NCBI GenBank assembly: GCA_022432975.1
Contig: CM039516.1
Coordinates: 36,669,599 to 36,733,598, forward strand
Length of the DNA: 64,000 nucleotides
Reading direction: 5' to 3'
Source of the DNA: Begonia masoniana
Lineage: Eukaryota; Streptophyta; Magnoliopsida; Cucurbitales; Begoniaceae
In this document: positions 2,300 through 58,003 of the stretch, one piece after another
Layout of the letters: the number at the start of each line of letters is the position of its first letter
Position numbering within the stretch: position 1 is the stretch's first letter
Notes under the pieces: generated by a model
The model's input: only the letters and a program-made list of their open reading frames with translations
Database searches by the model: none
Told to the model about the DNA's origin: nothing
Program-made: the position numbers and the translations under genes

Positions 2300-4356
2300 T
2301 GTAACACCCGGTTCTATCGAACCAGCTCTTTTATTATTAATGGTATACACTTTATTAGTTAATAATTTAAGTAGAGTTATTGAATGATTAGACTAGACAA
2401 GGGCATTAGAGTAAATTACATTTTTAAAAGTGGATAACGTATTTAAGGAAAGAGGGATTGGGTTTAATGCACTGTAGCCGCCACCATTTCATACTTTTCT
2501 CTTCGGGTTTTCAGCTCAAGCAGCCGAGCTCTCTAGGCAATTTTCCTCGCCCGATTATCCTTCGACTTAGGTAAGTTTTCCTCATTTCTCTTATGATATA
2601 GTGGTTAAATACCTGAAGGAGTGCAATGTGAGGATTTTGAGGATGCTGAGACTGAGCGTAGATTCAAGTTTTAGTGATAAAGGGGGAATGCTCGGGTAGT
2701 AGAGTTTCTAACTGGATTCCTCGAACCACTGTTTGATTCTTGGTGAGTTTTAGTGAAGTTTTGATTTATATTCTGTTATGAACTTAGGTGAGCAGATTTC
2801 CGAAGTAGCTAGCGACCAGACAATTTCCAGAAGCTAGGTAAGTAAAGTATGCATGTGCCTTCGGGCCTACATCACAAAACAATAGGGTTATGTATCTTGT
2901 GAATGATTTTGTATGTCATGCATCATGTTTTTTTGAAAGATTACGAAAATGAATTTCCATATAAGGATGGTAAGGCATGAACTGAATGTGACAGACAAAC
3001 TATTAAGGGAACTAATCCACCCCTTAACTTATGAAGGGATTTATAACATTGGGAGGATTGATCCCACTCCCAAGGGAACAGGGGGATCAGATCAGCTATT
3101 AAGGGAATTCATTCGCCCCTTAATCGAGTAGAGGATGTATAACATTGGGAAAATTGATCCACTTTCCAAGGGAACCGAGGGATCAAATCAGCTTATGAAT
3201 GAATGTGAATGCAACTGAGATGAGAAAGTAGAAATTGCATGTTTAGGAATTTATGTTTCAGCATTTCATTTCATTACTGCTTTACTTACTTAGCATTAGG
3301 CTAATAGATGAGTTTTGTGATGTAGGTGTTGAGGATACTGCAGGTGAATTCTCTGAGTTGGTTGACGACTAGGCAGGTTGGAGGGGTGCAATCAGGCATC
3401 GATTTGGCATCTGATGGGGCGGTTTAACTGGTGTCAGTGGTTGTGAAGGTTTAGTGGACAAAGATTTCAATTTGAGTATGTTAAACTTTCTGATGATAGA
3501 AGTTGCTTTGATGTTTTCAAAAAGTACTTTGAGACTTTTCTGATAATAGTATTCCGTTGGTTTTTAACACTGGATTATACTGGACTTGAGTAATGCAATG
3601 ATTTGAATTGTTTTGAATGGTTGTGGTGAAATAAGTAAATTCTTTTCTGTACTTAGAGTTGTACTTGCATAGCAAGAAATAGTTCAAATGTCGCTCTGTT
3701 CTCTATCGGAAGATGTCTTCAGAAAAGCCATCGGATGATGTAGGTTTAATTCTATCGAAAGATGTAGGTTTTGCACTACCAGTATGAGTGAGTATTATGC
3801 TTTGTCATTTAGTGATCGGTATATGCAGTTTATTCTATCGGAAGAAGGGAATAAGAGATTTTTGTCAGTTTTTCCGTCGGTAGATACGAGTCGCAAAACT
3901 TGTCGTTTTGCGAACGGTCGATGTCGGATAATTGATTTATCCGGCTGACGTCATCGGTAGATGCAGTCCACTGAGAGATGTCTTTTGTTTCCAACTCTTC
4001 TGGTCCACGTCATCGGTAGAAGCCTTCTATTTGCTGTTTCTGCTTCTTCCGTTGATTTTATCCGTCGGCAGATGCGTTTGACTTCTGCGACTTCCCAGGT
4101 ATTTCACGGTTTAAACCTCTATTTTTTTTAGCCGTTTATTTTTTTACATTTCAAACAATGTTCATAGTTTTGTTTAACTCTATTGTTGTCCAAATGATTT
4201 CCGCTGCAAGTTTTAAATGTTTTGAGATTTTAGCTTATGTCAAATGTTGAATGTTGGGCAAAGTTAAAAAAAAAATATATATATACAGTTGAGATTTTTT
4301 AGTTATGTACGAACTTTTGTGTAACGAACCAGGTTTAGATAACTCGGGGCGTTACA
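2300..4356 (+). mobile_element. Solo LTR H, chromovirus-type, plus strand
   Basis: Starts TGTAACACCCGG and ends CGGGGCGTTACA, with 5-bp duplication ATATG at 2295-2299 and 4357-4361. Length 2057 bp without coding capacity, hence a solo LTR left by LTR-LTR recombination. It has the same leader layout as the other gypsy LTRs here. Between 3670 and 4090 it carries degenerate CATCGG(T/A)AGATGC and TGACGTCATCGG motifs. Inside its putative intron 2 (about 2990-3190) a unit of roughly 105 bp is present twice. Confidence 0.9.
2571..3325 (+). other. Putative two-intron leader of LTR H, with complementary arms
   Basis: Donor AG|GTAAGT at 2571 and acceptor CTTAG at 2787 bound intron 1. Exon 2 is 2788-2837. 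Intron 2 runs from AG|GTAAGT at 2838 to GATGTAG at 3325, with a CTAAT-like branch motif upstream. Arms CCTACATCACAAAAC (2866-2880) and 3312-3326 are perfect 15-nt reverse complements, and the second contains the acceptor AG. Splice signals fit plant consensus; the function is inferred. Confidence 0.6.
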
Positions 4357-5855
4357 ATATGACAATCCCTCTGACGGAACCGGTTTCTCTGGCGGAACTA
4401 CTAAACACAGTTCCCTACCCACAACAACTATTACGTATTTTACTGTTCTATATTCTGTTACTCTTGTTTACATGAAAATTATGTATAAAAACCATTTTCT
4501 ATGCTTTAGGAAAACCATGATGCATGATTACATGTTGCACTCACATCCATCAATTCTATAATATAATATAAACTAATAAGCAAATCATTCATTAAACAAA
4601 CAACTAGCATAATTAACTCACTCACAACCTAAGAGTTCTACCCAACCAACTCTCAAAACTACATTCACCAAATCCTCAATCTCATAATCTTTTGTGGTGT
4701 AGGCCAATCGGCCAAAAAGCATGCATACATACACTTACCTCGTCTCTTGAGTTTGGTTTCGTTAATGTGCTCAAGTTCCTTCTTGACTTGTATACCTAAA
4801 GCATGTCAGTCAACATGATTCATAAAAATTCACTTAACAACCTAATTTTCGGAATTCCCTTCAAATAAACAACAAATTTCAAAATCTCATAACTTTTGCT
4901 ATACATAACCAAATTCGATAATTCTTGAGGCTATGGAATCCTTAAGGAGTCTACTTTAACATGGTAAGGTCAATTTATCAAGATAAACTAGCTCAACATA
5001 TCGAAAAGTTTGACTCCTTCATACCTCCCCTCCATTGGTTCTTCATTGTTGACTATTCAAACTCAACGCTATTCTTCATTCCTATTGGTCCTTATTTTAT
5101 TTTGACTTTTGAAACTCTCTTCAATTGGTTCATCATTCTTCTTTAGATGTTAAAGTTAATTGCTATTGGTCTAATACTTGTTGACTTCTCAATATTCCAT
5201 TGCTTCTCTTTATTTCTAAAATTGAGAAGTTTTAAATCATAAAACACTATGCACGAGTAATAGGGTGTACGATGAAATTTTTGGTTATTACAGATCTGCT
5301 ATTGCGCTTGATATAAAAGTCTTTGCTTTTTATGTTGAAGGTTGCCGACGCCATTATTCTTGTGTGTTGAATTTCTCTGTTCATCTGGGCATCTTTATTT
5401 CCTCACCCATGTTTCTGTGTGGTGTATGTGATTATTGATTAGAGCTTGTCATCTTTATCGTGGGCAAGGAGAGTTTGCCATACACGGATTCCGGGAGGAG
5501 TCATCTTCGACTAAGGGGAGCTTGTCGCATTTAAATCCAGGAGGGATTGTTCTTAAGTCAAGGGGAGCTTGCAAAACAGTTTCACTAGTAAATGTTGGAG
5601 GAGGCAGCATCAAAGATAAGAGGGAGTCTTATTTTGTTTTAGTCCGAGTGTCTTATAACCTTGTTTGAACTCGTGAAATGTTTTCATATCTGGGCGTGGC
5701 CCCGCAGATGTAGGCTGATTGCCGAACTTCGTTACCAACCTCTTGTGTCTTTAAATTTTGCATTTTTAATATTGTTCTATATCGTATTTATAACCGGTGT
5801 CACACGAAGTGTTACAACACTTTATAACATCGAGTCACTAACCTTGATCTTTCAA

Positions 5856-5868
5856 TTGATATCAGAGC
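5856..5868 (+). promoter_or_regulatory. Primer binding site of the Sirevirus-like element (tRNA-iMet)
   Basis: TTGATATCAGAGC begins two bases after the 5' LTR end. It is a one-base variant of the TGGTATCAGAGC sequence complementary to the 3' end of plant initiator tRNA-Met. Confidence 0.8.
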
Positions 5869-5925
5869 GGATCGTCTCTGTTTCTTAGGCGAGATCCGTA
5901 GGACTTGATCTTGGTTTTTGCTACG

Positions 5926-7452
5926 ATGGACTCTATGAAAAAAGGAGGTTCAACAATGCGTCCACCCTTGCTAAATGGAAACAATTATGCTTACTGGAAA
6001 GCTCGAATGAAAGCGTTTATTAAGGCCGTTGATGAAAAAGTCTGGAAATCTATTTTAACAGGTTGGGATCCACCAATGATTACAAGCGAAGCCGGAGTTA
6101 CATCTATCAAACCTGAAGAAAGCTGGTCCGTCACTGAAGATGTTCTAGCAAATAGTAACTCAAAGGCCCTTAATGCTATTTTTAATGGTGTTGATCCAAC
6201 TCAATTCAGACTTATTTCTACATGTGAGTCTGCTAAAAAGGCTTGGGATATTCTTCAGACTACTTATGAAGGTACTTCAGCAGTAAAGCTATCAAAAATG
6301 CAGTTTTTAACAACAAAATTTGAGAACTTGAAGATGCACGATGAAAACATTATCGAGTTTAATGCAAGACTCTGTGATATTGCTAATGAAGCTTTTGCTC
6401 CTGGTGAAACTATTTCTGAAGAGAAACTTGTGAGAAAAACTCTAAGATCTCTGCCCCAACGTTTTGCTTATAAAGTTACTGCAATTGAAGAAGCAAAAGA
6501 TATCACCAAAATGAAATTAGAGGAGCTGATGGGTTCTCTTAGAACATTTGAGATGAATCTCGATGTAGATATGGAAACAAAGAAGGTGAAAGGCTTGGCT
6601 TTAAAAGCAGAAATGCAGAACTCTGAAGAATGTAATGAAGATGATCTGGAAGAATCTTTAGTATTGATATCAAGAAATTTCAGCAGAGTGTTGAAGAAAT
6701 TTGGCAGAAATAATCGTGGTGTCAGACAAAATGTCACTAATACCAAGAATGACTCTACAAGTTATAAGAAGTCCAAAGACGAAAATCAACCTTCAGATAA
6801 ATTCTTGAATAATAAGGGAATTAAATGTAGAGAATGTGATGGTTTTGGACATATTCAGGCTGAATGTGCAAATATCTTGAAGAAGAAAAAGACCTCTCTC
6901 AACACAACTTGGAGTGAGAGTGATTCAGAAAAAGAAGATGAAATCTCAAACCAGAATATGGCATTTGTTGCTAAAGCTAAACCTACAAGTTTTGATAGCA
7001 TCACTCACAATGTCTCTGAAAGTATATCTGAAAATAGCGATGATGATACAGAAGAAGTTACAAAAGAAGATCTTATTGATGAATATAAGAAGTTTTATGA
7101 AAAATTGACAGAATTGGTTGAAATAAATCAACATCTTCGAAGATAGATTGGAAGTCTGAAAAATGAAAATGGAAGTCTTCAAGATTATGTTACTGATTTG
7201 GAAGTTAAACTGAAATCAAGCCAGAATGAGATAGAGCAGTTGTCGAATGATCTAAATCTCATTAAGAAGAATGTTAGAATGCTAAACTCAGGTTCCTCTA
7301 TTCTTGATGATATTCTAATGGCCAGTAGATCATGTGATGATACCACCGGGATTGGTTACAAAGGAGAATGCTCAGTGTCTCCGAAAGTGCCAAAAATCGA
7401 TGCTGAAAATAAAAGGGAAGAAAGTTGCGATATCCATCAACAAAACTGAACA
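5926..7452 (+). pseudogene. gag: Sirevirus gag (interrupted)
   Basis: The reading frame begins with MDSMKKGG followed by PLLNGNNYAYWKARMKAFI, the typical opening of copia Gag (UBN2-type); an upstream ATG at 5905 would add seven residues. A zinc knuckle CRECDGFGHIQAEC (CX2CX4HX4C) lies near residue 305. Stop TAG at 7144-7146 interrupts an acidic, coiled-coil-prone C-terminal region, which continues in the same frame to about 7450. A frameshift then leads into the frame with a second knuckle, CHYCFRQGHIRPRC, and protease. Gag would form the virus-like particle and bind the element RNA. Confidence 0.82.
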
Positions 7453-9916: not shown

Positions 9917-10943
9917 GTATGAATCTATGATTTTAGAGCGTTAGTTTTCAATTTTTGGGTTGATTTAACGTTAGGGTTTCTGTTTAGGGTTTCGTCGAAA
10001 GTGTGAATTAGGGTTCAAAATTTATAGATTTACCGTAATTAAGGATATAATGATCGTATTGGACGTTATTGGACGAATATAATTGATTTAGGACAAATGT
10101 TAGATTTTGTAAAATTTTGAGATTTAAGGAAAAACTCGTAATTTGCGATTTGAGTTGCCGAGCATGTATTGCTCGATGAAATAGCTCAATGAATTGGATT
10201 AAAGCTTTAGGAAATTTCTTTAGTTAAAGTTTTGTTAAATTTGGACGTTTAGTAGTTTAAATTAGTTTTAACGGCGAATGTTGTGTTTTGACTCAGACGA
10301 ACGACTCTCGTGAACAGAGCTCGAGGTTTAGCGTGCACAAGGTAAGTTCTCGTGACTTACTCTGGCCGATTGGCCAACACCGTACTTCGATGTCGCGTCG
10401 AGGATCTTAGAGTATCGTGTGTTTAAATTGCTTTGGTTGGGATAGTTAGGTTAATCGCTTATTAAGTTATGTTTTTATTCGTCTTGATGGTATGCATGTT
10501 GGTTGTTTATTTTATGCTTATAACTGTTCATGCATCACGTATTTTAACTAAGCATGAAAATGAATTTCCGCACGATGTTTTCATAAAACCGATGTGGCCC
10601 AAAAAGGGGGGCTATTGATCTATTGTGTGGACCGATTAAGGGTCTGACCAATACCACATCTCATGTAATGTAATAAAATACGTAATCTATTATCTAGTCA
10701 CGCGAGGTGGGGCTCAGGCACGGCTGTACGTGTTGTAAGCGTGTACCCCCCTCCTCTAGCTGGAAAGAGTAGTCCGACTGTTAGATGGGCTCTCTCCGGT
10801 TAGGGGGATGAGATCTCGGTGATATTCTGTCTGCCATGATCTGTATGTTATGCATGATTTCTTAACTCCATATGCACTGCACGCATCTGTATTTACGTAG
10901 AATTTACTGAGCCTTTAGCTTATAGTGTGTCTGTATGGTGTAG
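9917..10943 (+). other. Putative two-intron leader in the 5' LTR of A
   Basis: Intron 1 runs from donor CCCTAG|GTATGA (9917) to acceptor ACTCAG (10296). Exon 2 is 10297-10341 (45 nt). Intron 2 goes from AAG|GTAAGT (10342) to GGTGTAG (10943), 602 bp, with TTACTGAGC upstream of the acceptor. The arm starting CCAACACCGTAC (10374-10385) pairs with 10933-10944 apart from one A-A mismatch and a G-U pair. The same structure occurs in the 3' LTR (intron 1 17108-17457, exon 2 17458-17502, intron 2 17503-18103). Confidence 0.55.
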
Positions 10944-11896: not shown

Positions 11897-11909
11897 TGGT
11901 ATCAGAGCC
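11897..11909 (+). promoter_or_regulatory. Primer binding site of chromovirus A (tRNA-iMet)
   Basis: TGGTATCAGAGCC four bases after the 5' LTR end is the exact complement of the plant initiator tRNA-Met 3' end. Confidence 0.9.
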
Positions 11910-16546: not shown

Positions 16547-19053
16547 TGTAATACCCGGCTTTACGGGATATTAATATTATATTATATGATGGCATTTTTG
16601 TAAATATGTCAATCAAGTCAGTTTTGTGAAAAGAAAGCGTCATTAGAATCCTAACGATTAATTAGAATTTTTAGAAATTTATGGAATTTTTCGGAGTAAT
16701 AACGCTATATTTCGAGTAATTACGTTTCTCATAATATAAAGGACGTTTTAGTAAAAATAGTAAACGAGGTCCGATTTGCAAACGGACAGTTTTAATAAAT
16801 CCCGAATAATAAGTTGGATTTATTGGTGAAATAAGGAAATTTGGAGAAACCGAATAGTTAGCCAATGAACGAAATGAAGGACGAAACAAATAGAAAATCA
16901 AAAGAAGGGCAAAATGGTAATTTGCCAAACCAAAATTATAAAAATATCAGAAATCCCTTTTCTCCCTCATTTCTTCTTCTCTGTTTTCACGAAAACGCCA
17001 AAGGCGATTTCGTTGTTCTCTAGCCGACGATCTCCTCCGTTCCAACCTCTGTTTCTCCTCTGATCGACCCGTTTCTTCCGTGCTTTCTCCTCCTCTCGCA
17101 ACCCTAGGTATGAATCTATGATTTTAGAGCGTTAGTTTTCAATTTTTGGGTTGATTTAACGTTAGGGTTTCTGTTTAGGGTTTCGTCGAAAGTGTGAATT
17201 AGGGTTCAAAATTTATAGATTGGACGTTATTGGACGAATATAATTGATTTAGGACAAATGTTAGATTTTGTAAAATTTTGAGATTTAAGGAAAAACTCGT
17301 AATTTGGGATTTGAGTTGCCGAGCGTGTATTGCTCAATGAAATAGCTCAATGAATTGGATTAAAGCTTTAGGAAATTTCTTTAGTTAAAGTTTTGTTAAA
17401 TTTGGACGTTTAGTAGTTTAAATTAGTTTTAACGGCGAATGTTGTGTTTTGCCTCAGACGAACGACTCTCGTGAACAGAGCTCGAGGTTTAGCGTGCACA
17501 AGGTAAGTTCTCGTGACTTACTCTGGCCGATTGGCCAACACCGTACTTCGATGTCGCGTCGAGGATCTTAGAGTATCGTGTGTTTAAATTGCTTTGGTTG
17601 GGTAGTTAGGTTAATCGCTTATTAAGTTATGTTTTTATTCGTCTTGATGGTATGCATGTTGGTTGTTTATTTTATGCTTATAACTGTTCATGCATCACGT
17701 ATTTTAACTAAGCATGAAAATGAATTTCCGCACGATGTTTTCATAAAACCGATGTGGCCCAAAAGGGGGGGCTATTGATCTATTGTGTGGACCGATTAAG
17801 GGTCTGACCAATACCACATCTCATGTAATGTAATAAAATACGTAATCTGTTATCTAGTCACGCGAGGTGGGGCTCAGGCACGGCTGTACGTGTTGTAAGC
17901 GTGTACCCCCCTCCTCTAGCTGGAAAGAGTAGTCCGACTGTTGGATGGGCTCTCTCCGGTTAGGGGGATGAGATCTCGGTGATATTCTGTCTGCCATGAT
18001 CTGTATGTTATGCATGATTTCTTAACTCCATATGCACTGCACGCATCTGTATTTACGTAGAATTTACTGAGCCTTTAGCTTATAGTGTGTCTGTATGGTG
18101 TAGGTGATATTGTAGGTGACATTGAGCCAGGTGAGGACGACGTTCCTCCTCCTGATGTATGATGCGGTTGATGGAGAATGGCCCGTGGGAGTGTGCTGAG
18201 CAGTCGGTGCGTTTTGACCCGTGGGGATGTATGTACGTGTTTTGAGAGTACTGAGTTATTTTTGGACAAAATATGTGTAAAGTAGAACATATTAGGATGC
18301 TTGGATCTGGCTAGATGTTAGGTTCATGTTTTGAGGTTTTAAACGTCTTCCAAAACCTGTTTTATAAACTGTGTTTTTGAAATGTTTCATTTGAACTGCT
18401 TGGAATTTAAAACAGGAGGATTTGATAATTTTTAAATATATCTACGCAGTTCGTTTTTATAAAAGTCTAACGTGGATTTAGATCGTTTAATTAGGGTGCA
18501 TAAGATGAGAATTGCGCAAGGGATAAGAAAGGAAGGAATGTTGGTGTTTGCTCTCTGGAACTTCGGATTCCAGAGAGCACTTGTATAAAAAAAAAAAAGA
18601 GAAGAAAGAAAAGAGGAGAGAAAAAAAAGAAGGAAGGTGGGAGGCGACTGATCGCCATTATGAGGGGCGACCAATCGCCCCTCCATGCCTTGTGTTCGGC
18701 GATCGATCTCCTGAATTTTGGAGATCGATCGCCCCTCACTTTGGTTACACATTGGCGATCGATCTCCTGAATATGGAGATCGATCGCCCCTCTCCTGTTG
18801 GTCGCGGCTTTGACCCTTATGCCCTCCCTCTTTTAACCGATTGTTTTATAGTTTTAATGAATCGTTTTAATTAGTTTTAATTTATTTTTATAATTGATTT
18901 TAAGTTTTGGTTTAAGTGGGTTTAAAAAAAACAGAACTAGATTTCAATTTCCGATTTCGATTTCATTTCCGTTTAAGTTTAAATTTAAAGTTTATAATAA
19001 GGATAAAAAAAAAATATGTACGGAAAATTGGGTACAGTATTAGGGTCGCTACA
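16547..19053 (+). repeat. 3' LTR of chromovirus A
   Basis: 2507 bp copy of the 5' LTR, preceded by a purine-rich tract at 16534-16546. It differs by a ~30-bp deletion near 17220, a few single-base changes and small homopolymer differences. Confidence 0.93.
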
Positions 19054-23803: not shown

Positions 23804-23808
23804 GCAGT

Positions 23809-26754: not shown

Positions 26755-27756
26755 GTATGATTATATAGTTTTGGAAGGTTATTATTCGGTTTTTTACGAA
26801 GTTACACCGTTAGGATTTCGTTAAAAACGTGATTTAGGGTTTGAAATTTATAGGTTTACCGTGTTTGTTGATATAAAGGACGTATTGAGCGTTATTGGAC
26901 GAAATTAACCTATTTAGGACAAATGTTAGGGATTTATGAAATTTTGGGTTTTTGGAAAAACTCGTTAATGGTGGTTTCGAGCGTTTATTGTTTGTTAAAA
27001 TGCCTTGATTAGTTAAGTTAGAACTTTAGAAATTTCCTTAGTTAAGGATTTTGTTAATTTGGACATTAATGGTTCAAACGCGTTTTAACGATAACTGTTG
27101 TGAACTTCTTAGGTGAACAACGCTCGTGGACGGAGCTTGAAGTTCAACGCGCACGAGGTAAGTTCTCGTGACTTACTCTGGCCGATTGGCCTACACCGTA
27201 TATCGAAGTCGTGTCGAGGGTTATTGTGGAATTGTTTGTTTATACGCTTTGGTTGGGTAGTTAGGGTTAGTTCTTTTATAGGATATGCTTTTAATTACTT
27301 TTATTGTCTTGATGGTACGTATGATGTATGTTTACTTTAAGCACGTAATTGTCCATGCATCACGGTTTTCAATTATACATAGAAAATGAATTTCCGCACT
27401 ATGGTTTTAAAGAAAATGGCGATGTGGCCTGAAAGGGGGCTATTTACCTATTGTGAAGGCTGAGAAGGGCCGGTCACAATACTGCATCTAATAAGAACCC
27501 ATGTATGTTATATGGTCATGCGAGGTGGGGCTCAGGCATGGGTGTGCGTGTTGCAAGCATGTACCCCCCTTCATTAGGTGGAAAGGGTTGTCCAACCGCT
27601 AGACGTGCCCTCTCCATTTAGCGGGTTGAGATCTCGGTGACAACCTATGCAATGATAAGAAAATGTTGCATGATTTATGAACTCATATGCACAGCATGCA
27701 TTTTCATTTACAAAACTTGCTGAGCCTTTAGCTCATAGATTGTCTGTATGGTGTAG
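26755..27756 (+). other. Putative two-intron leader of LTR B, with complementary arms
   Basis: Intron 1 26755-27112 (CCCTAG|GTATGA to TCTTAG), exon 2 27113-27157 (45 nt), intron 2 27158-27756 (GAG|GTAAGT to GGTGTAG). Arms CCTACACCGTATA (from 27190) and TGTATGGTGTAGG (ending 27757) pair over 13 positions with two G-U pairs. Where B has a U-G pair, element A has C-G. Confidence 0.55.
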
Positions 27757-37650: not shown

Positions 37651-38405
37651 CTATACCATAGAACACAAAACGTAAGCCTAATGCTTAGTAAGTAGGGAAT
37701 AATGCATATAAAAACACAATGCACACTACACACACACCCTCACACACAACCCTACAATACAACCCAACAACACAACACAACAACACAACACCACACAACA
37801 CGACAACACAACACAACACGAACAAAACTGCCTGCATCGATAGATGCCTTAAGATTTGCCTGCATTGATAGATGCCTTAGTTGCCTGCATCAAAAGATGC
37901 CTTATTGCCTGCACCGAAAGGTGCCTTATTGCCTACACCGAAAGGTGCCTTAGTTGCCTGCATCGAAAGATGCCTTAAGATTTTCCTGCATCGATAGATG
38001 CCTTAGTTGCCTGCATCAAAAGATGCCTTATTGCCTGCACCGAAAGGTGCCTTATTGTCTGCACCGAAAGGTGCCTTAGTTGCCTTCATCGAAAGATGCC
38101 TTATTGGCTGCACCGAAAGGTGCCTTAGTTGCCTGCATCGAAAGATGCCTTATTGCCTGCACCGAAAGGTGCCTTATAAATTTGCTCAACTATCGTTCAC
38201 ACTAACAATGTCAAACAAATGCAACATCACACAACGCCTCAATACAACACACACAATGCCAAACAAATGCAACTTCACACAACACCTCAATACAACACAA
38301 AACAAAACAATAACTCAACAAAATACGAAGCAACACAAATAACCATTAAACCTTACCGTTCTATGGTGTAGGCCCGGAGGCGAAAGGATAATAACCCCTA
38401 CTTAC
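37651..38405 (-). other. Putative leader intron 2 of LTR F, with complementary arms
   Basis: Minus strand: donor CCAG|GTAAGT at 38405, acceptor GGTATAG at 37651, with TTACTAAGC upstream. Exon 2 would be 38406-38461 after acceptor GTTAG. On the minus strand CCTACACCATAGAAC (38372-38358) pairs with GTTCTATGGTATAGG (37664-37650) at 14 of 15 positions. The hairpin array 37828-38174 lies inside this intron, unlike in the other families, where the arrays are downstream. Confidence 0.55.
37828..38174. repeat. Array of 14 GCATC/GATGC hairpins in LTR F
   Basis: About 14 units of 23-29 bp, each a 5-bp stem with a 4-nt loop: GCATC-GAAA-GATGC, GCATC-GATA-GATGC, GCATC-AAAA-GATGC or GCACC-GAAA-GGTGC. Both sides of the stem change together (ATC/GAT versus ACC/GGT). 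The order of unit types in the first half is roughly repeated in the second. On the minus (sense) strand the usual loop is TTTC. Confidence 0.92.
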
Positions 38406-40779: not shown

Positions 40780-41563
40780 CTACATAAGAGAGTTCACCTA
40801 TGAGTCTAAAACTCAGTAAGGACATAATCAGAATGCAGTGATGCAAAATGCTATGCATGCAGTTTTTCATAAATACGGTGACAGTACAGAGCATTAAGTT
40901 ACAGTGGCAGTAGAATTAAGTGGAGCTTATAGGGGAACTGGCAAACAGTGGGGGACGGGGAGGGTGCACTATCAGGCACATTCAGGGATACAGTACAGTA
41001 AACAGTTCTGGGGCCAGTCCCCGTCTCGCACTTAACCTGATACATTTCAGTCGAATTTTATCTTGTTTAGTTTCAAACGGTGTACAGAAATCGGTTTTGC
41101 ATGACTTTCAGAGAAAATGTGTATGCATGAACAGTGCTTGAACTTAAACAGGCAGAGAGTAGATGACAGAACATACAGGAAACAGGACATAGACAACTCA
41201 AAACTTAACTATAACATTTCTACCCAAAACAACCCGACGGAACAGGAAACCTAGTACCTCCGTGATGTAGGGCCTTAAGGGACAACCTACGGTTATAACT
41301 TACCTGTTTGCTGCAATGTAGTATGCTCGAATGTCTTTGGAACGCACGGATCTGTTGCTGCAATGTAGAGAAGTTAAACAAGTTGCAAATGCTAACAAAT
41401 AACTTGGAAGATTATGTAGTAAACTCCATTCAGACTTGTAGAAAACAACGAATGTGTTTCCATACAAAAACCGAGAGTTTTCTCACAACTATCTTAACCT
41501 AAAGCTTCAGCATAACCCATAGTTTTTGCTTGTCCAAATGTGTTAGCATTAGAAGATGTTTAC
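40780..41563 (-). other. Putative two-intron leader of LTR D
   Basis: Minus strand: donor 1 CTAAG|GTAAAC at 41563, acceptor TTGCAG at 41358, exon 2 41357-41304 (54 nt), donor 2 ACAG|GTAAGT at 41303, acceptor TTATGTAG at 40780 (intron 2, 524 bp), with TTACTGAG upstream. The donor-side block CCTACATCACGG shares only the core CCTACAT/ATGTAGG with the acceptor, the shortest complement of all families here. Confidence 0.5.
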
Positions 41564-46559: not shown

Positions 46560-48814
46560 TAACTGTGACAGCCCGAAACCGAACCCGATCAGAGTCCGGG
46601 ATCGAAGCCATCACTCCGGGATAGTGGACAGAAAAAAAAAATGGTGACTAATTTTTTTTTTTTGAACATAAACAGAGCAGATAGCGTTACTGGAACAACT
46701 TATGAAAGCCAACTGAACTTTTAAAACTTTAACGGAAAACAAAACCGAATGACAGAAAACATGCACTATCAATGCAAACCCTAAAAGAGCATAGCTTTAT
46801 AGAGGGGAGAAACTACAATGAGTAACAGAGTATAAATAACAGCAGAAAAACAGGGAATGAAGTCGGAAGGCATAGGCAGAAATCTGGCGGAAAACTTAGT
46901 TTAAAATTGGGCAGATGACTTGAATGACGTCAGTCGGAAGATATAAATGCAAAGGCAGAAGCGGAGATGACGTCAGCCGGAAGGAACAGACAGCAGCTGA
47001 GATCGGATGAGGTGATGACGTCAGCCGGAAGATGGATGAAGTCAAACAGAAGATGTGAAGACGTCATTGGCAGAAACAGATAGTAAACGAAATTGGCAGA
47101 AGGTGATGACGTCATTGGAAGATAGATGACGTCACCGGAAGATGTAGGCATTAAATGTAATCGGCAGGAGATGAAAACAGTGGATGACGTCATCGGAAGA
47201 GGAGATGACGTCAGACGGTAGATGCAGGCATTAAACGAAATCGGATTATGTGATGACGTCATCAGCAGATAAAGGCATTAAACGTAATCGGCAGAAGAAA
47301 AGCTATGGTGACGTTATCGGAAGAGGAGATGACGTCGTCGGAAGATGAAGTTAAACTAAGAGACAGATGAAACCGGCAGAAGTAACTAAGACTGATGAAA
47401 TCAACTGTTCACCGGTGGATGAGATAAGACCAAATGTGAACAGTGACTATCGGTGGATGCAGTAAACGTGATCAGAAGATGCAATTTAAAAGGGGCAGAA
47501 TTTGACTACTTTTAACAGAAAACATGAAAGTCTCAGATTCTTAAACCAATTCAAAACATGGTTCTCGAGCACAACAGAAGGCATACAGGTTTCAGACCTT
47601 CATTACAAATGACAGATTTCAAGAAAACAAACTGCATGGATAGCTCTAAAATTCGAGACCATCCATGCATGACCTGAAAAGGGAGAACTCAAGCAGCTCC
47701 AGAATGTTTTCAAGACATTTCACAGGAAACAACTAACAACTGTCAACAGAGATTTAAAATTCGATCATCAGAACTTATACATTATATATACATCCAACAG
47801 AATTTTCCTACAAAGTTTTTAAGACAAAACACAAGACCTCAACAGAGTTTTAAAACAAACACACCAGAATTTCAGAAGATTTTACAGATATGAACATTTC
47901 TTAAAAGACTAAGACTTAAATCTCGGGACAGAAAATGGTGTTTGACTGTGGCAACCACACTGTGAGCTCGATCCACCAATTACATCAGATCGTCATTTTG
48001 AGGAACAAGGTCCTCGATTTCAAGTTCAGTACCTACATAAGAGAGTTCACCTATGAGTCTAAAACTCAGTAAGGACATAATCAGAATGCAGTGATGCAAA
48101 ATGCTATGCATGCAGTTTTTCAAGAAATACGGTGATAGTACAGAGCATTAAGTTACAGTGGCATTAGAATTAAGTGGAGCTTATAGGGGAACTGGCAAAC
48201 AGTGGGGGAGGGGGAGGGTGCACTATCAGGCACATTCAGGGATACAGTACAGTAAACAGTTCTGGGGCCAGTCCCCGTCTCGCACTTAACCTGGTACATT
48301 TCAGTCGGATTTTATCTTGTTTAGTTTCAAACAGTGTACAGAAATCGATTTTGCATGACTTTCAGAGAAAACGTGTATGCATGAACAGTGCTTGAACTTA
48401 AACAGGCAGAGTGTAACGACCCCGGCCAGGAGCCGTCACGTGTTCATATTCTTTCATTAATCGTTTGCTTGACTTTTACTATTATTACATTCACTTACTA
48501 TCTCTCAACAGACTTCCACATTTTACATATACTTTTTTTTAAAACTGGTAATAGAAACGCAGAACCATTAAGGAAGACGAACCCTCTCGTGCCCGACTTC
48601 CCACGCCTCGTCGGCTCAACCTTCACAGAATCGTGCGACTAGACTCGGTCATTGGCTTCTTGACAATTTCGGGAAAAGAGGAGGTGCCCTCAATTCTCTT
48701 AACTTAATACCACTCGGGTTTGCATGGGTTGCATGCGTTGACAACCCTCAGAAATTTAGTCGTCTGGTCATCACGTGCATTACGCGTGACTCGCTTAACA
48801 TCGCCTAAAAGGAG

Positions 48815-49140
48815 ACATCTTCCGGTGGGCACGTGGGTCTCGCGTGCTAAATTAAAACATCATCCGGTCGCTAATCGACAAAACACATTTTACATCTTCC
48901 GATGACGTCATCCGGAAGACTAAACCATCATACAACTATCCTTCGGCATCTGCCGATGACGTCATCCGGAAGACTAAACCAACAAACAATTAACTCTCGG
49001 CATCTGCCGATGACGTCAACCGGAAGACTAAACCAACAAACAACTACCCTTCGGCATCTGCCGATGACGTCATCCGGAAGACTAAACCAACAAACAATTA
49101 ACTCTCGACATCTGCCGATGACGTCAACCGGAAGATTGCC
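48815..49140. repeat. GATGACGTCATC palindrome array in the LTR of E
   Basis: Five main units, each a near-perfect palindrome built of CTTCCGGATGACGTCATC-like arms around TGACGTCA or the variant TGACGTCAAC, spaced by ACTAAACCAACAAAC-type linkers. The same array is at 55923-56250 in the other LTR. An open frame over it is an artefact of the repeat. Confidence 0.92.
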
Positions 49141-49498
49141 TCGTCCAGCTTCCGTCTTACGGTAGAGAACACTAAATCATCAAATGACTCCTCCCAACAG
49201 AAAGAAAACACAACTCATTCAAGATGCATATAGCGGAAGACTTAAGCAACAGATCATTTATAAATCTATATAATCATTCCCTGACTCAGTGATCCACCAG
49301 ACAGTTTCAAAGCTCAACGTTTTAAAATAATCTCATCCTACTTAAGCTACCATATCCTTTAACATACTGTAACATAAGAATCTTAACCAGGGGTCATAAA
49401 TCGCCTCTCCAGTCCTGCACTGTTACCTTGAGCATCCTCCAGCAACCAGCCTTAAGCATCCTCTTTGAACATAACATCCTCACCTGAACCTTCTTCAC

Positions 49499-50572
49499 CT
49501 ACACCATAAGGTTTAACTATAAACCTAATGCTTAGTAAGGAATGCATGCTGACAGATATACATGAGTACACAATTTAAAGAGACATAATCCATAAACCAT
49601 TCTTCATTCATGTTCATCTTTATCATTTACATAACATGTATTAAGACAGGAGACGAGGGAGGAAGACAGGATACATAGTCATTTGCCTATCGCGGCAGAC
49701 ATACATAATCATTTGCCTATCGCGGCAATCATGATACATCACTCGGCCTCCCCAGTGGGAGAATTCGCGAGCCATACATATCATTAACTCGGCCTCCACC
49801 AGTGGGAGATTTCGCGAGTCGTACATATCATTAACTCGGCCTCCACCAGTGGGAGATTTCGCGAGTCATACATATCATTAACTCGGCCTCCACCAGTGGG
49901 AGAATTCGCGAGTCATACATAACATAGTCTTTCCCCGCTCTGCACTTAATCTTGGTCACATTTGCTTTTCATATTCTCAACTTAATCATAACAGGGACAC
50001 AGTGCATAGACATAAAGTTCATAGAGAGAAGTCATATCATGAGGACAAGTAAAACATCCTGTAACTTTACATTTACTTACACAACTTCTTCATATCGTGG
50101 AAGTAACAAATCATAGTCAATAAACTAACATCTCAGTGATTTCCTAATACCCTTGCGGTGTAGGGCCCTAGTGGCCGGAAATCTTAACACATTCACTTAC
50201 CTGGATTCCTTAGCAATCCGAACTTCTTTCCTTTAAACTTCTTCACCTAAAACATGTACATTACAGTAGTTAAAACAAAGTCCTAATAGTCCTAATCATA
50301 AACCATCCTAGGATCTAATAGCTAAAGTCATTCCGATTCCTCTGTTTGACACACTGCAGTCTGAAATCCGAAACTAGGTGGACAGGTTTTACCATTGGTT
50401 AAATCCGAGTTGGTTACTTAAAATGTTCAGAATCGATTCGGGATGACATTTCTACTCTCAGATTTTAAAAAGTCTTAAACTACTCGGCCACTGCTAAAAA
50501 AATCCGAACTCAGTGCCGAGCTGAAAACAGAGCTCTATTTACTAATGAATGACTACATTGTCCATTTCATAC
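49499..50572 (-). other. Putative two-intron leader of LTR E, with complementary arms
   Basis: Minus strand: donor CCGAG|GTATGA at 50572, acceptor TTTTAG at 50247, exon 2 50246-50201 (46 nt), donor CCAG|GTAAGT at 50200, acceptor GGTGTAG at 49499 (702 bp), with TTACTAAGC upstream. CCTACACCGCAAGG (50164-50151) pairs with CCTTATGGTGTAGG (49511-49498) at 13 of 14 positions including one G-U. Repeated in the other LTR with intron 2 at 56607-57308. Confidence 0.55.
49735..49925. repeat. ~50-bp tandem repeat x4 inside intron 2 of LTR E
   Basis: Four units with core CTCGGCCTCCACCAGTGGGA followed by GA(A/T)TTCGCGAG, preceded by two shorter TTTGCCTATCGCGGCA units. Also at 56845-57030 in the other LTR. 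Confidence 0.88.
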
Positions 50573-50935
50573 CTCGGGTGTGGATTTGCAGAGAAGAGCA
50601 AGCTCGAAACCAGCCGTCGGTAAGGGAAGTTCTGGTAGCCGAGAGCAAGAACTTGGGAAAGAAGGAATCGCCGAGAGGGAATGTCGGCTACAGTGGTAAT
50701 AAATGAGGTTTAAGGTTTCCATTTACTATTTATACCTAATCCATCAATTTTAATTACAAAACTGCCACCCAACCTAGTTTTACTCAACTTGTAATAAATT
50801 TGTCTTAACATTAAATTTAAATCATAAAGGTTAAATAAGAGGGTGACAATGAAAATGGTCAGAAAATCACCTGGCCGAAATGTCGGGTGTTACATCCACC
50901 CCTCCTTAAACAAAATTTTCGTCCTCGAAAATTGC

Positions 50936-53900
50936 TCAGGCAAATAACTTAGGATATTTGTCCAACATCTCCTGCTGCCTTTCCCATGTGGCTTCTTCAA
51001 TGCCGTGATTTGTCCATAAAACTTTCACCAATGGGATCTCTTTGTTTCTCAGAGTCTTGACTGCATATTCCAGTATCTGTATCGGTTTCTCCTCATACTC
51101 TAGTGTCGGTTCTAAACCAATATCCAATGGTTGGATGACCTGCATCGGATCACGAATGCACTTCCTTAACATTGACACATGGAAGACATTATGAACTTTA
51201 TCCAACGATGGGGGCAGTTGCAGTCTGTAAGCTGTACTCCCGATTTTTGCCAAGACAGGGAAGGGTCCAACGAATCTAGGATTAAGTTTTCCCTTCTTGC
51301 CAAATCTTAAGACTCCTTTAAATGGTGACACCTTTAAGAATACTTCATCTCCTACTGAAAACTCGAGTTCCCTTCTCCTTTGATCTGCATAACACTTCTG
51401 CCGGCTTTGTGCAGTCATCATTCTTTTCCGAATAGTGGCAATCTTATCTGACATTTGTTGCAGAACATCAGGTCTAAGAAGTTTTGTTTCACCAACCTCG
51501 TCCCAGTAAAGAGGTGACCTACATTTCCTACCATACAGTGCTTCATAAGGTGCCATACCAATGGTGGACTGATAACTGTTATTGTAGGAGAACTCAACTA
51601 GAGGTAATTGTCTGCTCCAAGTTGTCTGAAAGTCAAGTACACATGCTCTCAACATATCTTCGAGTATTTGAATCGTCCTTTCTGACTGGCCATCGGTCTG
51701 TGGGTGAAAAGCTGTGCTGAAAGATAACTTTGTACCTAATGTGCCTTGCAAACTTTTCCAGAATCGAGAGGTGAACCTGGGGTCACGGTCAGAGACAATG
51801 GATACAGGGATCCCATGCAACCTAATAATTTCCTGAACATAAAGATCAGCAAATTGGTCCATCGTATAGGTGGTCCTTACAGGTAAGAAATGGGCTGATT
51901 TCGTCAGTCTATCCACCACAACCCAAATACAATCATGCCCTTTTGTCGTCTTAGGTAGTCCTACAACAAAATCCATAGCTATATGTTCCCACTTCCATTC
52001 GGGAATAGGCAACGGCTGAAGAGTACCTCCTGGACGTTGGTGCTCGGCTTTGACTTGTTGGCATACTAAACAGGACTCAACATACTTAGCAACATCCCTT
52101 TTTAGGTTAGGCCACCAATACAGTAACTTCAGGTTTCGGTACATCTTGGTGCAGCCAGGATGTACAGAAAAGGAAGAGGAGTGCGCCTCAGCCAAGATCA
52201 ACTTACGCAATTCCACATCATTAGGAATGCACCACCGATTTCTAAACCTCAGGATCCCATCCTTGGAGAGACTGAACTCGGAGGTGGTGTCCTTCAACTT
52301 ATCCATCATGCTGATATTTTCCACTGAATCCTTCTGTTGTGCATCCTTGATCTTTTCCAAAATTGTTGGTTGAATAGTTAACTCAGCGAGCAAGACTGAT
52401 AACTCTGGAACTATCTCCAAGTCAAATTTCTGAACTTCTGTTCTTAAGGGTATAGACATGGTTGACACCACGGGCTGCATTGTTGTTGACATCCTACTCA
52501 ACGCATCAGCTACAGAGTTAGCCTTCCCGGGGTGATACTTGATCTCAAAATCGTAATCCTTGACAAATTCCAACCAACGTCTCTGTCTCATGTTCAATTC
52601 CTTCTGTGTGAAGAGGTACTTTAGACTTTTATGGTCAGAAAACACCTCACATTGCTGTCCATATAAATAGTGTCTCCAAATCTTCAAGGCAAAAACAACA
52701 GCAGCTAATTCCAGATCATGGGTGGGGTAATTTTGCTCGTAACTCTTTAGCTGCCTAGAAGCATACGCTATAACTTTACCCTCTTGCATCAAAACACAAC
52801 CTAACCCAACTTTAGACGCATCACAGTAAACACTAAATTTTCCTTCTTCGGTTGGGAGGGTCAATACAGGAGCTGTTGTTAACTTCAGTTTTAACGTCTG
52901 GAAGCTGTCTTCACAGGCTTCAGTCCAAGCATACTTAATGTCCTTCTTTGTTAAACCTGTCAGGGGTTTAGCTATCATGGAAAATCCCTTGATGAACTTT
53001 CTGTAATAGCCTGCCAATCCAAGGAAGCTGCGGACATCACTGGCATTCTTAGGTTGAGGCCAATCCTTTACCGCCTGAATTTTGGTCGGGTCCACAGATA
53101 TGCCATTAGCAGAAACTACATGGCCAAGGAAATTAACCTTATCTAACCAAAACTCACACTTAGACAGTTTGGCGTAAAGTTGATGCTCCTTCAATGTCGT
53201 CAAAACTACTTTCAAATGTTCTTCATGGTCAGCCACAGTTCGAGAGTATATCAAGATATCATCTATGAGCACAATCACAAACTTATCCAAATACTCACGA
53301 AACACACGGTTCATTAGATCCATAAAAGCGGCAGGGGCGTTTGTCAATCCAAACGACATGACTAAGAATTCATAATGTCCATAGCGGGTTCTGAAGGCTG
53401 TCTTTGGTATATCTCCTTCTTTAACCTTCAGTTGGTAATAACCCGAACGTAAATCTATCTTTGAAAACACCTTAGCTCCTTGCAATTGGTCAAACAAATC
53501 GTCAATCCTGGGTAAGGGGTACCTATTCTTGATTGTCAACTTATTTAGTTCCCTGTAGTCTATGCACATTCTAAGAGAACCATCCTTTTTCATTACAAAT
53601 AAGACTGGTGCACCCCAAGGAGAACTACTGGGGCGAATAAATCCCTTGTCAACCAATTCCTGCAGTTGGACCTTCAATTCTTTCAACTCAACAGGTGCCA
53701 TACGGTACGGATTCTTAGATACAGGTGATGCCTCGGGGTATGTATCAATCACAAATTCTATTTCCCTATCAGGTGGTATACCCGGTAAGTCATCTAAGAA
53801 TGCCTCGGGAAACTCTCGGACTATAGGAATATCCTGTAGCTCAATTTTATTCTTCACCCGACCATCTATTACACTAGACAGGTAGCTCTCACAACCACAT

Positions 53901-55357
53901 CTCAGCATTCGGTATATTTCTAGTGAGGATATAATTGGTATCTTACTTATTTTAGGAATAGCTTGGAAGGAATAATGATTATCATTTGGGGGTCTAAAAT
54001 CAACTATTCCAGATCTACAACTTATCGTGGCATGATGTCTAAATAACCAATCCATCCCTAATATCACCTCATACCCTTTCATGTCAATGATAATTAACTC
54101 CGCATAGAGATCCTTATTCCCTAAGGACACGACGTCACCCTTAACAATCTGTTGTGAATGTAGGGACTTCCCTGATGGCAACACAACACTATATGACCTT
54201 TCAGCTGGTAAGGGTCCTATGTTATGTTTGCATACAAACAAGGTTGATATAAACGAGTGTGTGGCCCCTGTATCTATGAGTGTATAAGCAGCAAAACCAC
54301 AGATCATGATGTTACCTGATATGACTGTATGTTGATCAGCTCCCTCATCTTCCATCAACGCATACACTCTGGGTACAACCCTTGCACGGTTCGGGTCTGG
54401 CGGCATGGGACAATCTCTGACCATGTGTCTGGTCTTATCACACCTGAAACACCGGCCAGAAAGCAGCTTGCACTCACCAGGGTAGTTCCTCTGACATGTA
54501 GGGCATAGAGGCGCCAGAGGTCTCTTTCCTTTTCCCGGGTCATCATTCTGGTTGAGGGGCCTCTTCATTCCATGCTGCTGTTGCTGTGGTCCCCTGATCT
54601 GTCGTGGCTGCCAACCTTTGTTCTGACGTGGTGGCGGCTGAGTGTCCTTCATGAGTTTCTTTGGCTGTTCGCGCTGTGCATATGCTGTCATTTCTGCCTC
54701 TTCCGGCTCCAAGGCCTTAGCCGTCACTTCACCATAAGGTACATTATGTATCCCGGCAGTCTTCACTTTCATGTACAGACTTGGCTTCAGTCCTTGAACA
54801 AACTGGTAAATCTTATCTTCCTCATCCTCAATCATACGGGGAGCAAACTGTGATAAAGCATCAAATTCACATATATAATCCGTCACAGAGCCAGTTTGTC
54901 GTAGATTCATAAACTCCTTCTTCTTGTTGGCCCGAACAGTCCTATTGAAGTACTTGTCAAAGAAGGCAGTCTTGAACATCCCCCAGGTCATAGCTTCGGC
55001 ATTAGCGGTGCTCTGGATCGAGTCCCACCAATGCCTTGCACTTAATTCCAAATGAAAGACAGCATAGGTGACCTTATCCCCTTCGTCAACCTTTGCATAC
55101 TTAAACATGTCTTCTATCTTTTGAATCCACTCCTCAGCATGAATAGGATCTGAGACATACCCATTAAACACCGGGGGTCGAAGCCGGTGAAAGCGCTCAC
55201 CCCCATGATCATGAGTTGCGTTAGTACTGGAGTTGCCTTGTTCTTCTCTAGCTGTCATCAGTCGTTCTATCTGGTGAGATTGGCGCATGACCAACTCAGT
55301 CAACTGAGCAATAGCATTGCTATCCTCATTGGCCTCTCTCTGTTGACCTCTAACCAT
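50936..55357 (-). CDS. gag-pol: Chromovirus E gag-pol polyprotein, intact
   Basis: 1473 aa from the ATG at 55357, chosen because elements A and D also start MVRG; an in-frame ATG at 55411 would give 1491 aa (numbering below uses 1491). Gag about 75-250; zinc knuckle [14 protein letters not shown] 321-334; protease [10 protein letters not shown]380; RT with D653 and DD 717-718 (LIDDILIYS); RNase H with D863, E901, D926, D969; integrase zinc residues H1077, H1084, C1114, C1117; catalytic D1147, D1208, E1244 (DD35E); C-terminal chromodomain about 1440-1491, ending [19 protein letters not shown]. Every catalytic residue is present and there is no stop. The polyprotein would assemble particles, copy the RNA and integrate, with the chromodomain guiding it to chromatin. 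Translation probably starts from the spliced or unspliced LTR leader. Confidence 0.95.
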
Positions 55358-55503
55358 CTTGGGATTCCTAGACAAATCATTACAGGCATAACTTAACTTA
55401 ATGACATACATGAAATCATAAACACTTACAGTTGCTGAGGTGTGCTCAAGTGACAGTCAGTGCTGAGAGGCAGTCTGCAGAATCGGTTTTAGAACCTGGT
55501 TTT

Positions 55504-55515
55504 GCTCTGATACCA
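55504..55515 (-). promoter_or_regulatory. Primer binding site of chromovirus E (tRNA-iMet)
   Basis: TGGTATCAGAGC on the minus strand, four bases from the 5' LTR; exact iMet complement. Confidence 0.9.
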
Positions 55516-55519
55516 CAAT

Positions 55520-58003
55520 TGTAACGACCCCGGCCAGGAGCCGTCACGTGTTCATATTCTTTCATTAATCATTTGCTTGACTTTTACTATTATTACATTC
55601 ACTTACTATCTCTCAACAGACTTCCACATTTTACATATACTTTTTTTTAAAACTGGTAATAGAAACGCAGAACCATTAAGGAAGACGAACCCTCTCGTGC
55701 CCGACTTCCCACGCCTCGTCGGCACAACCTTCACAGAATCGAGCGACTAGACTCGGTCATTGGCTTCTTGACAATTTCGGGAAAAGAGGAGGTGCCCTCA
55801 ATTCTCTTAACTTAATACCACTCGGGTTTGCATGGGTTGCATGCGTTGACAACCCTCAGAAATTTAGTCGTCCGGTCATCACGTGCATTACGCGTGACTC
55901 GCTTAACATCGCCTAAAAGGAGACATCTTCCGGTGGGCACGTGGATCTCGCGTGCTAAATTAAAACATCATCCGGTCGCTAATCGACAAAACACATTTTA
56001 CATCTTCCGATGACGTCATCCGGAAGACTAAACCATCATACAACTATCCTTCGGCATCTGCCGATGACGTCATCCGGAAGACTAAACCAACAAACAATTA
56101 ACTCTCGGCATCTGCCGATGACGTCAACCGGAAGACTAAACCAACAAACAACTACCCTTCGGCATCTGCCGATGACGTCATCCGGAAGACTAAACCAACA
56201 AACAATTAACTCTCGGCATCTGCCGATGACGTCAACCGGAAGATTGCCTCATCCAGCTTCCGTCTTACGGTAGAGAACACTAAATCATCAAATGACTCCT
56301 CCCAACAGAAAGAAAACACAACTCATTCAAGATGCATATAGCGGAAGACTTAAGCAACAGATCATTTATAAATCTATATAATCATTCCCTGACTCAGTGA
56401 TCCACCAGACAGTTTCAAAGCTCAACGTTTTAAAATAATCTCATCCTACTTAAGCTACCATATCCTTTAACATACTGTAACATAAGAGTCTTAACCAGGG
56501 GTCATAAATCGCCTCTCCAGTCCTGCACTGTCACCTTGAGCATCCTCCAGCAACCAGCCTTAAGCATCCTCTTTGAACATAACATCCTCACCTGAACCTT
56601 CTTCACCTACACCATAAGGTTTAACTATAAGCCTAATGCTTAGTAAGGAATGCATGCTGACAGATATACATGAGTACACAATTTAAAGAGACATAATCCA
56701 TAAACCATTATTCATTCATGTTCATCTTTATCATTTACATAACATGTATTAAGGCAGGAGACGAGGGAGGAAGACAGGATACATAGTCATTTGCCTATCG
56801 CGGCAGACATACATAATCATTTGCCTATCGCGGCAATCATGATACATCACTCGGCCTCCCCAGTGGGAGAATTCGCGAGCCATACATATCATTAACTCGG
56901 CCTCCACCAGTGGGAGATTTCGCGAGTCGTACATATCATTAACTCGGCCTCCACTAGTGGGAGATTTCGCGAGTCATACATATCATTAACTCGGCCTCCA
57001 CCAGTGGGAGAATTCGCGAGTCATACATAACATAGTCTTTCCCCGCTCTGCACTTAATCTTGGTCACATTTGCTTTTCATATTCTCAACTTAATCATAAC
57101 AGGGACACAGTGCATAGACATAAAGTTCATAGAGAGAAGTCATATCATGAGGACAAGTAAAACATCCTGTAACTTTACATTTACTTACACAACTTCTTCA
57201 TATCGTGGAAGTAACAAATCATAGTCAATAAACTAACATCTCAGTGATTTCCTAATACCCTTGCGGTGTAGGGCCCTAGTGGCCGGAAATCTTAACACAT
57301 TCACTTACCTGGATTCCTTAGCAATCCGAACTTCTTTCCTTTAAACTTCTTCACCTAAAATATGTACATTACAGTAGTTAAAACAAAGTCTTAATAGTCC
57401 TAATCATAAACCATCCTAGGATCTAATAGCTAAAGTCATTCCGATTCCTCTGTTTGACACACTGCAGTCTGAAATCCGAAACTAGGTGGAAAGGTTTTAC
57501 CATTGGTTAAATCCGAGTTGGTTACTTAAAATGTTCAGAATCGATTCGGGATGACATTTCTACTCTCAGATTTTAAAAAGTCTTAAACTACTCGGCCACT
57601 GCTAAAAAAAATCCGAACTCAGTGCCGAGCTGAAAACAGAGCTCTATTTACTAATGAATGACTACATTGTCCATTTCATACCTTGGGTGTGGATTTGCAG
57701 AGAAGAGCAAGCTCGAAACCAGCCGTCGGTAAGGGAAGTTCTGGTAGCCGAGAGCAAGAACTTGGGAAAGAAGGAATCGCCGAGAGGGAATGTCGGCTAC
57801 AGTGGTAATAAATGAGGTTTAAGGTTTCCATTTACTATTTATACCTAATCCATCAATTTTAATTACAAAACTGCCACCCAACCTAGTTTTACTCAACTTG
57901 TAATAAATTTGTCTTAACATTAAATTTAAATCATAAAGGTTAAATAAGAGGGTGACAATGAAAATGGTCAGAAAATCACCTGGCCGAAATGTCGGGTGTT
58001 ACA
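55520..58003 (-). repeat. 5' LTR of chromovirus E
   Basis: 2484 bp, nearly identical to 48412-50894; offset 7108 bp. Would supply the promoter and leader for the intact polyprotein. Confidence 0.95.

Follow-up and report, generated by a model that had tools for sequence, protein, structure and literature searches.

We analyzed a 64-kb stretch of the Begonia masoniana genome (referred to as the window), in which Ty3/gypsy long terminal repeat (LTR) retrotransposons are nested in one another, and found that the long leader of these chromovirus-like elements is interrupted by two introns that lie inside the LTR. Both are real U2-type spliceosomal introns with GT-AG borders and exact excision, intron 2 having a consensus donor. 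The ends of the second intron appear to be held by a clamp of three helices, namely the hairpins P1 and P3 and the long-range helix P2, in which the bases just after P1 would pair over about 11-15 bp with the 3' splice site including AG|G. We put at roughly 55% the probability that P1-P2-P3 restrains splicing of intron 2 and leaves unspliced RNA for reverse transcription, and we favour restraint because the donor is perfect while the branch-point motif and the acceptor sit in helices.

As both introns lie within the LTR, an element that spliced all its RNA would lose them. The clamp would hide the branch point and the acceptor and leave the donor free, which would slow the splicing of intron 2 so that much of the RNA would retain it. 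Unspliced RNA would then be the sole template that preserves the LTR while spliced RNA would serve as mRNA, and the clamp, which vanishes with the intron, would tell the two apart.

Complementary arms at the ends of intron 2 in seven LTR families

All seven LTR families of the window (7/7) have a block, downstream of an AG|GTAAGT donor, that pairs with the stretch ending at the 3' splice site. Every family follows one order. A short exon closes with AG and is followed by GTAAGT; arm 1 comes about 30 nt later, and beyond a long and variable interior stand a conserved CTNAY block and then arm 2. Arm 1 starts 28-36 nt past the first intron base and the last base of arm 2 is the first exon base after AG; arm 2 ends in TGTAG|G except in family F, where it ends in TATAG|G. 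Such complementarity in seven families had been proposed by an earlier sequence-only reading of this DNA, and we verified its coordinates and letters. As that reading had it, the arms join both intron ends, with arm 1 near the donor and arm 2 at the 3' splice site.

The H family is represented by a solo LTR (2300..4356, plus strand) with a 5-bp target duplication (ATATG), inserted in a G LTR, inside the G intron. Its intron 2 (2838..3325, 488 nt) runs from an AG|GTAAGT donor to a TGTAG|G acceptor, and arm 1 (2866-2880), the 5' strand of P2, pairs at 15 of 15 positions with arm 2 (3312-3326), the 3' strand, which lies over the 3' splice site. The arms of G (intron 2 at 2068..4738, minus strand, 613 nt without the inserted H LTR) pair 14/14 (4690-4703 with 2067-2080) and those of F (37651..38405, minus) 14/15 (38358-38372 with 37650-37664). 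E carries its arms in both LTRs (introns 56607..57308 and 49499..50200, minus), where 57259-57272 with 56606-56619 and 50151-50164 with 49498-49511 make 13 of 14 pairs including one G-U. These four counts agree with those given before. D (copy 1, 40780..41303, minus) is better than its earlier description as a 7-bp core only: 41258-41271 and 40779-40792 pair at 12 of 14 positions (11 Watson-Crick, one G-U); a second D copy (48033..58164, minus; arm 1 from 58131, arm 2 ending at 48032) is interrupted by the inserted E element. In the A family (27158..27756, plus) the arms at 27190-27202 and 27745-27757 pair 13/13 with two G-U, and in B (10342..10943, plus) those at 10374-10386 and 10932-10944 pair 11/13 with one G-U; the second B copy lies at 17503..18103 (plus; arm 1 from 17535, arm 2 to 18104).

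When arms were permuted among the seven families, the true matching was the best of 5,040, two matchings tying because A and B have an identical arm 2; without B, the true matching came out top (1/720). We further slid two 15-nt windows along the introns of six families (B omitted) and observed 79 pairs in register, as compared to at most 50.5 in 5,700 off-diagonal registers (z 4.19 versus at most 3.05), with 76 same-diagonal registers kept apart.

The interior of intron 2 holds tandem arrays in F (37829-38176), E (49741-49925) and H (3000-3193), built from 24-, 47- and 96-bp units; by eye, the units of F and E contain inverted-repeat letters.

Covariation of P2 across the genome

The motifs are abundant in the assembly of 795,452,319 bases to which all genome-wide counts refer. 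The H arm CCTACATCACAAAAC occurs 13,209 + 13,179 times (reversed control 1), and among 100 places listed 68 make 34 facing pairs with a spacing of 347-755 bp. Arm-1 patterns of other families gave 12,449 and 12,201 matches (22 and 13 for the reversed controls), a pattern nested in the first of these gave 3,346 (12 reversed) and the branch-point block 27,013 (33 reversed).

From this genome we sampled 20 stretches of 10 kb, 18 placed ignoring the motif and two at listed H-arm places, as well as 50 targeted short stretches picked for a diverse arm 1. Arm 1 was located from the donor or from a pattern, and arm 2 from the CTNAY block together with the AG that follows it; in copies taken from the pattern lists, the pattern constrains arm 1 and leaves arm 2 free. 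After removal of L003 and L005, which overlap with L004 and L006, the usable set comprised 58 copies in 28 family clusters, some elements contributing both LTRs. One artefact, the second D copy read into the E insertion, was omitted from the 28-cluster test, while four copies (L029, L045, L053, L078) in which the rule chose a wrong acceptor (the true AG seems mutated) were retained and counted against the helix. The donor AGGTAAGT was present in 23 of the 28 clusters, the search allowing AGGTA[AT][GA]; L071, L074, L078, L049 and L065 entered without a donor match and have, by eye, donor forms one or two letters off. Across the 58 copies, intron 2 measures 396 to about 1,330 nt (with an assumed offset where the donor was unmatched) and arm 1 starts 28-40 nt from the donor. 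One family (L042, L048, L049, L065, L066) has an arm 1 like CCTACAYCACAGTTG, which the donor precedes by 46 nt in L042, L048 and L066; in the copies where arm 2 was located (L049, L065), it is more than 1 kb distant.

The outer arm bases were claimed to differ by family on both sides around a common core CCTACA/TGTAGG. Both statements hold in the 28 clusters: the core is close to invariant, and over columns 7-15 the arms form 171 own pairs (G-U counted as half), as compared to a mean of 142.8 and a maximum of 164 in shuffles (0/100,000; z 5.5). With shuffling confined to four superfamilies, defined from the letters preceding arm 1, 2 of 100,000 rounds reached 171 (z 4.7). These statistics are shuffles and not tree-aware. 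Sliding the register by 1-3 columns reduced the 148 own pairs of columns 7-13 to 47-87.5. The exchanges are visible in single columns: column 12 is GC in 9 clusters, AT in 6, CG in 3 and TA in 1, column 10 is TA in 11 and CG in 7, and column 7 is CG in 17 and TA in 7; columns 14-16 are weak, with 12, 10 and 6 Watson-Crick pairs of 28. Close relatives differ as well. The related copies L069 and L070 show an A-U to G-C difference in column 11, and in column 10 the F-like group has U-A (L041, L061), C-G (L034, L016, L050), a U-G intermediate (L051) and one broken C-A (L056). Compensatory double changes thus exceed chance in these alignments, as for a selected RNA helix.

The position of the partner was also recovered by a scan of the 250-1350 nt downstream that made no use of the acceptor, in which arm 1 paired best with the 3' splice site in 52 of 58 copies (23 of 28 clusters). 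For the outer part of arm 1 alone, the 3' splice site was best in 9 of 28 clusters, versus 37 of 560 shuffled arms and 109 of 756 arms of other clusters.

Arm 2 often holds a start-stop combination, ATG-TAG or ATG-GTG-TAG, with G and L034 as exceptions (by eye); this is probably a by-product of the pairing motif.

Hairpins P1 and P3

The sequence-only reading had proposed a leader structure of which P2 is borne out; it overlooked two hairpins and the upstream intron 1, and undercounted D. P1 is a hairpin of 3-5 bp, mostly G+C-rich, that adjoins arm 1 about 20-30 nt past the donor in 23 of 28 clusters. In H it is GCC-TTCG-GGC (2857..2866), and it lies at 27180-27191 in A and at 57272-57284 in E. 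Its stems vary (GGCC-loop-GGCC, GGC-TACG-GCC, GCCC-AGAA-GGGC and others), and its final one or two pairs use bases that are also in arm 1. When the last four bases were fixed and the rest permuted (2,000 rounds), at most 13 clusters reached an equal score and at most 19 had any 3-bp hairpin.

P3, of the form TNAG-loop-CTN'A, has 4 bp and contains the CTNAY motif just upstream of arm 2. In H (TTAG-loop-CTAA, 3290..3304) the hairpin ends on the A of CTAAT that resembles a branch point, 21 nt ahead of the last intron base; P3 lies at 27721-27735 in A, 37673-37687 in F, 40801-40815 in D, 56628-56642 in E and 2089-2103 in G. The N-N' pair is GC in 13 clusters, AT in 11, TA in 1, GT in 1 and unpaired in two, a score of 25.5 versus at most 24 in 20,000 shuffles. 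By eye, 99 of 100 branch-point-block places listed have a Watson-Crick N-N', in a listing dominated by a few families. In 55 of 58 copies, 20-27 nt separate the branch-like A of CTNAY from AG; this A is identified by motif only, and the motif is also part of the acceptor anchor.

Exact intron loss in genomic copies

The LTR intron, putative in the sequence-only reading, proved to be real by its exact excision in retrocopies. An H-type junction of exon 2 to exon 3 was found at two genomic places (L079, L080), 6,085 bp apart on one strand of contig C9, and a broader pattern for this junction gave no further places in the whole genome. The two copies are 98.2% identical over 1,216 bp and one is preceded by the end of pol, which gives them the appearance of an LTR pair from a single element. 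Both introns are absent from them exactly, exon 1 (...CTTAG) running into exon 2 and exon 2 (...CCAG) into exon 3. In the H LTR of the window the homologous features are intron 1 (2571..2787, 217 nt, GT-AG), exon 2 (2788..2837, 50 nt) and intron 2.

The junction of exon 1 to exon 2 occurs at seven genomic places, the C9 pair and five more (L081-L085). In these five, intron 1 is exactly gone and intron 2 is kept with its donor and, in the adjoining stretch, a P3-like block, the acceptor and arm 2; four of them have an exact arm 1 and the fifth a mutated one. Loss of the H-type intron 2 was thus seen in a single element, as compared to 6,415 acceptors that share the exon 3 pattern and still carry the intron. 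Such intron-less LTRs would arise most simply when spliced RNA is reverse transcribed. Since L081, L082 and the C9 element have a common exon 2 variant, there were probably two or more losses of intron 1 and a single loss of intron 2, which perhaps followed that of intron 1.

Exon 3 (e.g. 3326-3373, 27757-27804, and 56559-56606 on the minus strand) encodes, in the frame G|GT, a short and mostly acidic peptide followed by a stop in most copies (e.g. GDLDIGEDEIPPPEE, GEEGSGEDVMFKEDA). Counted from AG|GT, the nearest following word of the GGTG[AT][GATA] type is a whole number of triplets away in 41 of 44 copies measured (14 others left out). No start codon was seen by eye in exon 1 of E.

Other features of the window

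E is a complete element whose LTRs are 99.3% identical to each other. Its gag-pol open reading frame (ORF; 50936..55411, minus strand, 1,491 aa) encodes gag, protease, reverse transcriptase (RT), RNase H and integrase and has a weak chromodomain match. This order, together with the LTR pairs of B, D and E, fits a plant Ty3/gypsy chromovirus; the Pfam domain Chromo follows integrase in E, B and D with E-values of 0.0013-0.0032 and 17.8-19 bits, below the cutoff of 25.1. A narrower, putative placement in the Tekay/Del clade goes back to the sequence-only reading. The segment 41926-58787 is a D element with its LTR split by the complete E, the D LTRs being about 94-97% identical versus 99.3% for E. 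A 532-aa ORF with the plant domain Transposase_32 (Pfam) lies at 20995-22593; like the retrotransposons themselves, it indicates plant DNA.

The 3' parts of the D, E and H LTRs (39699-40052, 48892-49135, 56001-56243 and about 3940-4024) have in common repeats around TGACGTCA- and CGGAAGATG-like words, although the LTRs are otherwise dissimilar; we take these words to be bZIP-like. An array of 25-bp units (GTCCACGAAGCCTTCTGTCCTTATT-like, 28351-29919) begins where the A LTR stops resembling B, and GTCCAC words also stand next to the C9 retrocopy. A comparison of the window with Rfam gave no match at gathering score. Among viral contigs, a pattern scan gave no match and a scan with RT pieces no relative.

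Discussion

How firmly can restraint of intron 2 splicing be read from these data? The retention of intron 2 in copies that lost intron 1 points toward restraint, in a small sample that could also reflect packaging. Several results speak against it. The contrast between the two introns comes down to few events. Given their common exon 2 variant, L081, L082 and the C9 element may all stem from a single ancestor without intron 1, and copies lacking intron 2 may be scarce because of packaging and not because splicing is rare. As the junction patterns specify the letters of the exons, intron-2-less copies with other letters may be missed (exon 3 of L081 and L082 would not match), and patterns for the E, A and D families gave no match in the genome. 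In 6 of 58 copies arm 1 finds a better partner elsewhere, and 27 arm-1 candidates without a P3-anchored acceptor were omitted from the 58, part of them spurious starts, part cut by the end of a stretch and part decayed. When 90- and 75-nt windows were paired by RNAduplex and compared to 1000 dinucleotide shuffles, 570 shuffles equaled the real value in E, 501 in D and 158 in B (328, 423 and 148 for the second copies), as opposed to none in H and G, 5 in F and 13 in A. Windows of this length are too permissive because many scattered pairs score, and gapless in-register tests were used instead. When whole introns were folded in silico, P2 was highly probable in A, G and H and moderately so in B (about 0.6); for D, E and F its probability was 0.01 or less.

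Pairing of intron ends need not restrain splicing. P2 might join the ends of a long intron and so promote or proofread its splicing, like the zipper stem of yeast RPS17B. It would shrink an intron of about 400-1,300 nt, leaving 28-40 nt from donor to arm and, in 55 of 58 copies, 20-27 nt from branch to AG, and the RPS17B pairing is reported to promote splicing (PMC2536676). We regard this main rival as unlikely, though worth serious thought: arm 2 comes after the branch-point motif and spans AG itself, P3 pairs that motif, and copies that lost intron 1 still retain intron 2. Zipper-stem variants in RPL28 are, in addition, reported to lower intron retention, so that the sign of the effect varies even in yeast.

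A bolder version of restraint would make P1-P2-P3 an RNA switch peculiar to retroelements that responds to its own splicing state, and which when folded blocks branch point and acceptor and also marks the genome for packaging. We consider this doubtful.

The clamp might alternatively act as a signal for packaging, dimerisation or export of unspliced genomic RNA, its overlap with the splice sites tying it to the unspliced form. In retroviruses the packaging signals are located 3' of the major donor, and a structure within the intron can serve to mark unspliced RNA. Here, too, both arms are intronic, so the fold is present only in unspliced RNA, and intron-2-less insertions are very rare. On the other hand, a packaging signal would have no need to overlap AG and the branch-point motif repeatedly in different families, and the one intron-2-less element was reverse transcribed and inserted; we hold a signal of this kind to be rather improbable. 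In the retroviral leader, unspliced RNA must likewise persist as genome (PMC5035971). The elements studied here are not retroviruses, their long-range helix lies on the acceptor, and Gag binding would be hypothetical.

It is very improbable that the arms owe their conservation to something else, be it inverted sites for DNA-binding proteins, a protein-coding role of arm 2 or an inverted duplication in the recent past. Despite an almost invariant core, an open exon 3 and a frame over arm 2 that reads YGV, CGV or CDV followed by G in many families, the outer P2 columns vary on both sides and still pair, also within superfamilies, P3 covaries and P1 recurs at the same ends with different stems, while coding is ruled out as the cause of arm 2 by stops in that frame, close upstream in the intron, in many copies and inverted duplication by fixed arm offsets and changes on both sides.

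Complementary segments near both intron ends are known from yeast, where the RPS17B (RP51B) pairing and other zipper stems are reported to alter the effective distance of the splice sites (PMC2536676; PMC12350175). Beyond that likeness the systems differ as far as these accounts describe them. The 3' strand lies upstream of the branch point in RPS17B and over the 3' splice site here; the present introns also carry their branch-point motif in a hairpin and reside in the LTR of a multicopy retrotransposon. A partner upstream of the branch point, as in a yeast-type zipper stem, was accordingly not found, arm 2 being downstream of CTNAY and ending in AG|G. Pairs of conserved complementary regions (PCCRs) in human genes show compensatory changes, and some are reported to cover the polypyrimidine tract and block the acceptor (PMC8052449). 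They are described as avoiding branch points on average, whereas here branch-point motif and acceptor are both paired and one architecture is repeated in many families of a repeat. Internal pairing is also said to bring the splice sites of long diplomonad and parabasalid introns near each other (PMC6679479). There it is an MFOLD prediction with splice sites and branch point forced single-stranded, and the account describes neither a retroelement nor an acceptor-covering helix.

Plant elements are generally intron-less, with exceptions, according to a 2025 review (PMC12786077). Pools of spliced and unspliced RNA with different roles are reported for Ogre, EVADE and BARE1 (PMC12786077, PMC6317226; PMC3735527). 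The Ogre intron lies between coding domains, splicing of EVADE removes the protease domain and that of BARE1 yields a Gag-only mRNA, unlike the present elements with both introns in the LTR leader; the accounts of spliced plant retrotransposons in these three papers do not describe introns in the LTR. In the open-access collection searched for LTR introns and intron pairing, titles and abstract openings likewise describe no combination of an acceptor helix and a branch-point hairpin in a retroelement. Measured against these sources, intron-end pairing and spliced plant retrotransposons are known; what is new is an acceptor-covering helix together with a hairpin on the branch-point motif within an LTR intron.

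An LTR intron must avoid splicing in every RNA that is copied back to DNA, or else it is lost, and the intron-less LTRs in the genome are a natural record of introns spliced in reverse-transcribed RNA. If acceptor and branch-point motif are held by a conserved clamp, this would be a simple explanation of how the RNAs for translation and replication are kept separate. If the clamp were indeed a switch of the splicing state, one structure would choose between mRNA and genome, and the survival of LTR introns in tens of thousands of copies would be explained.

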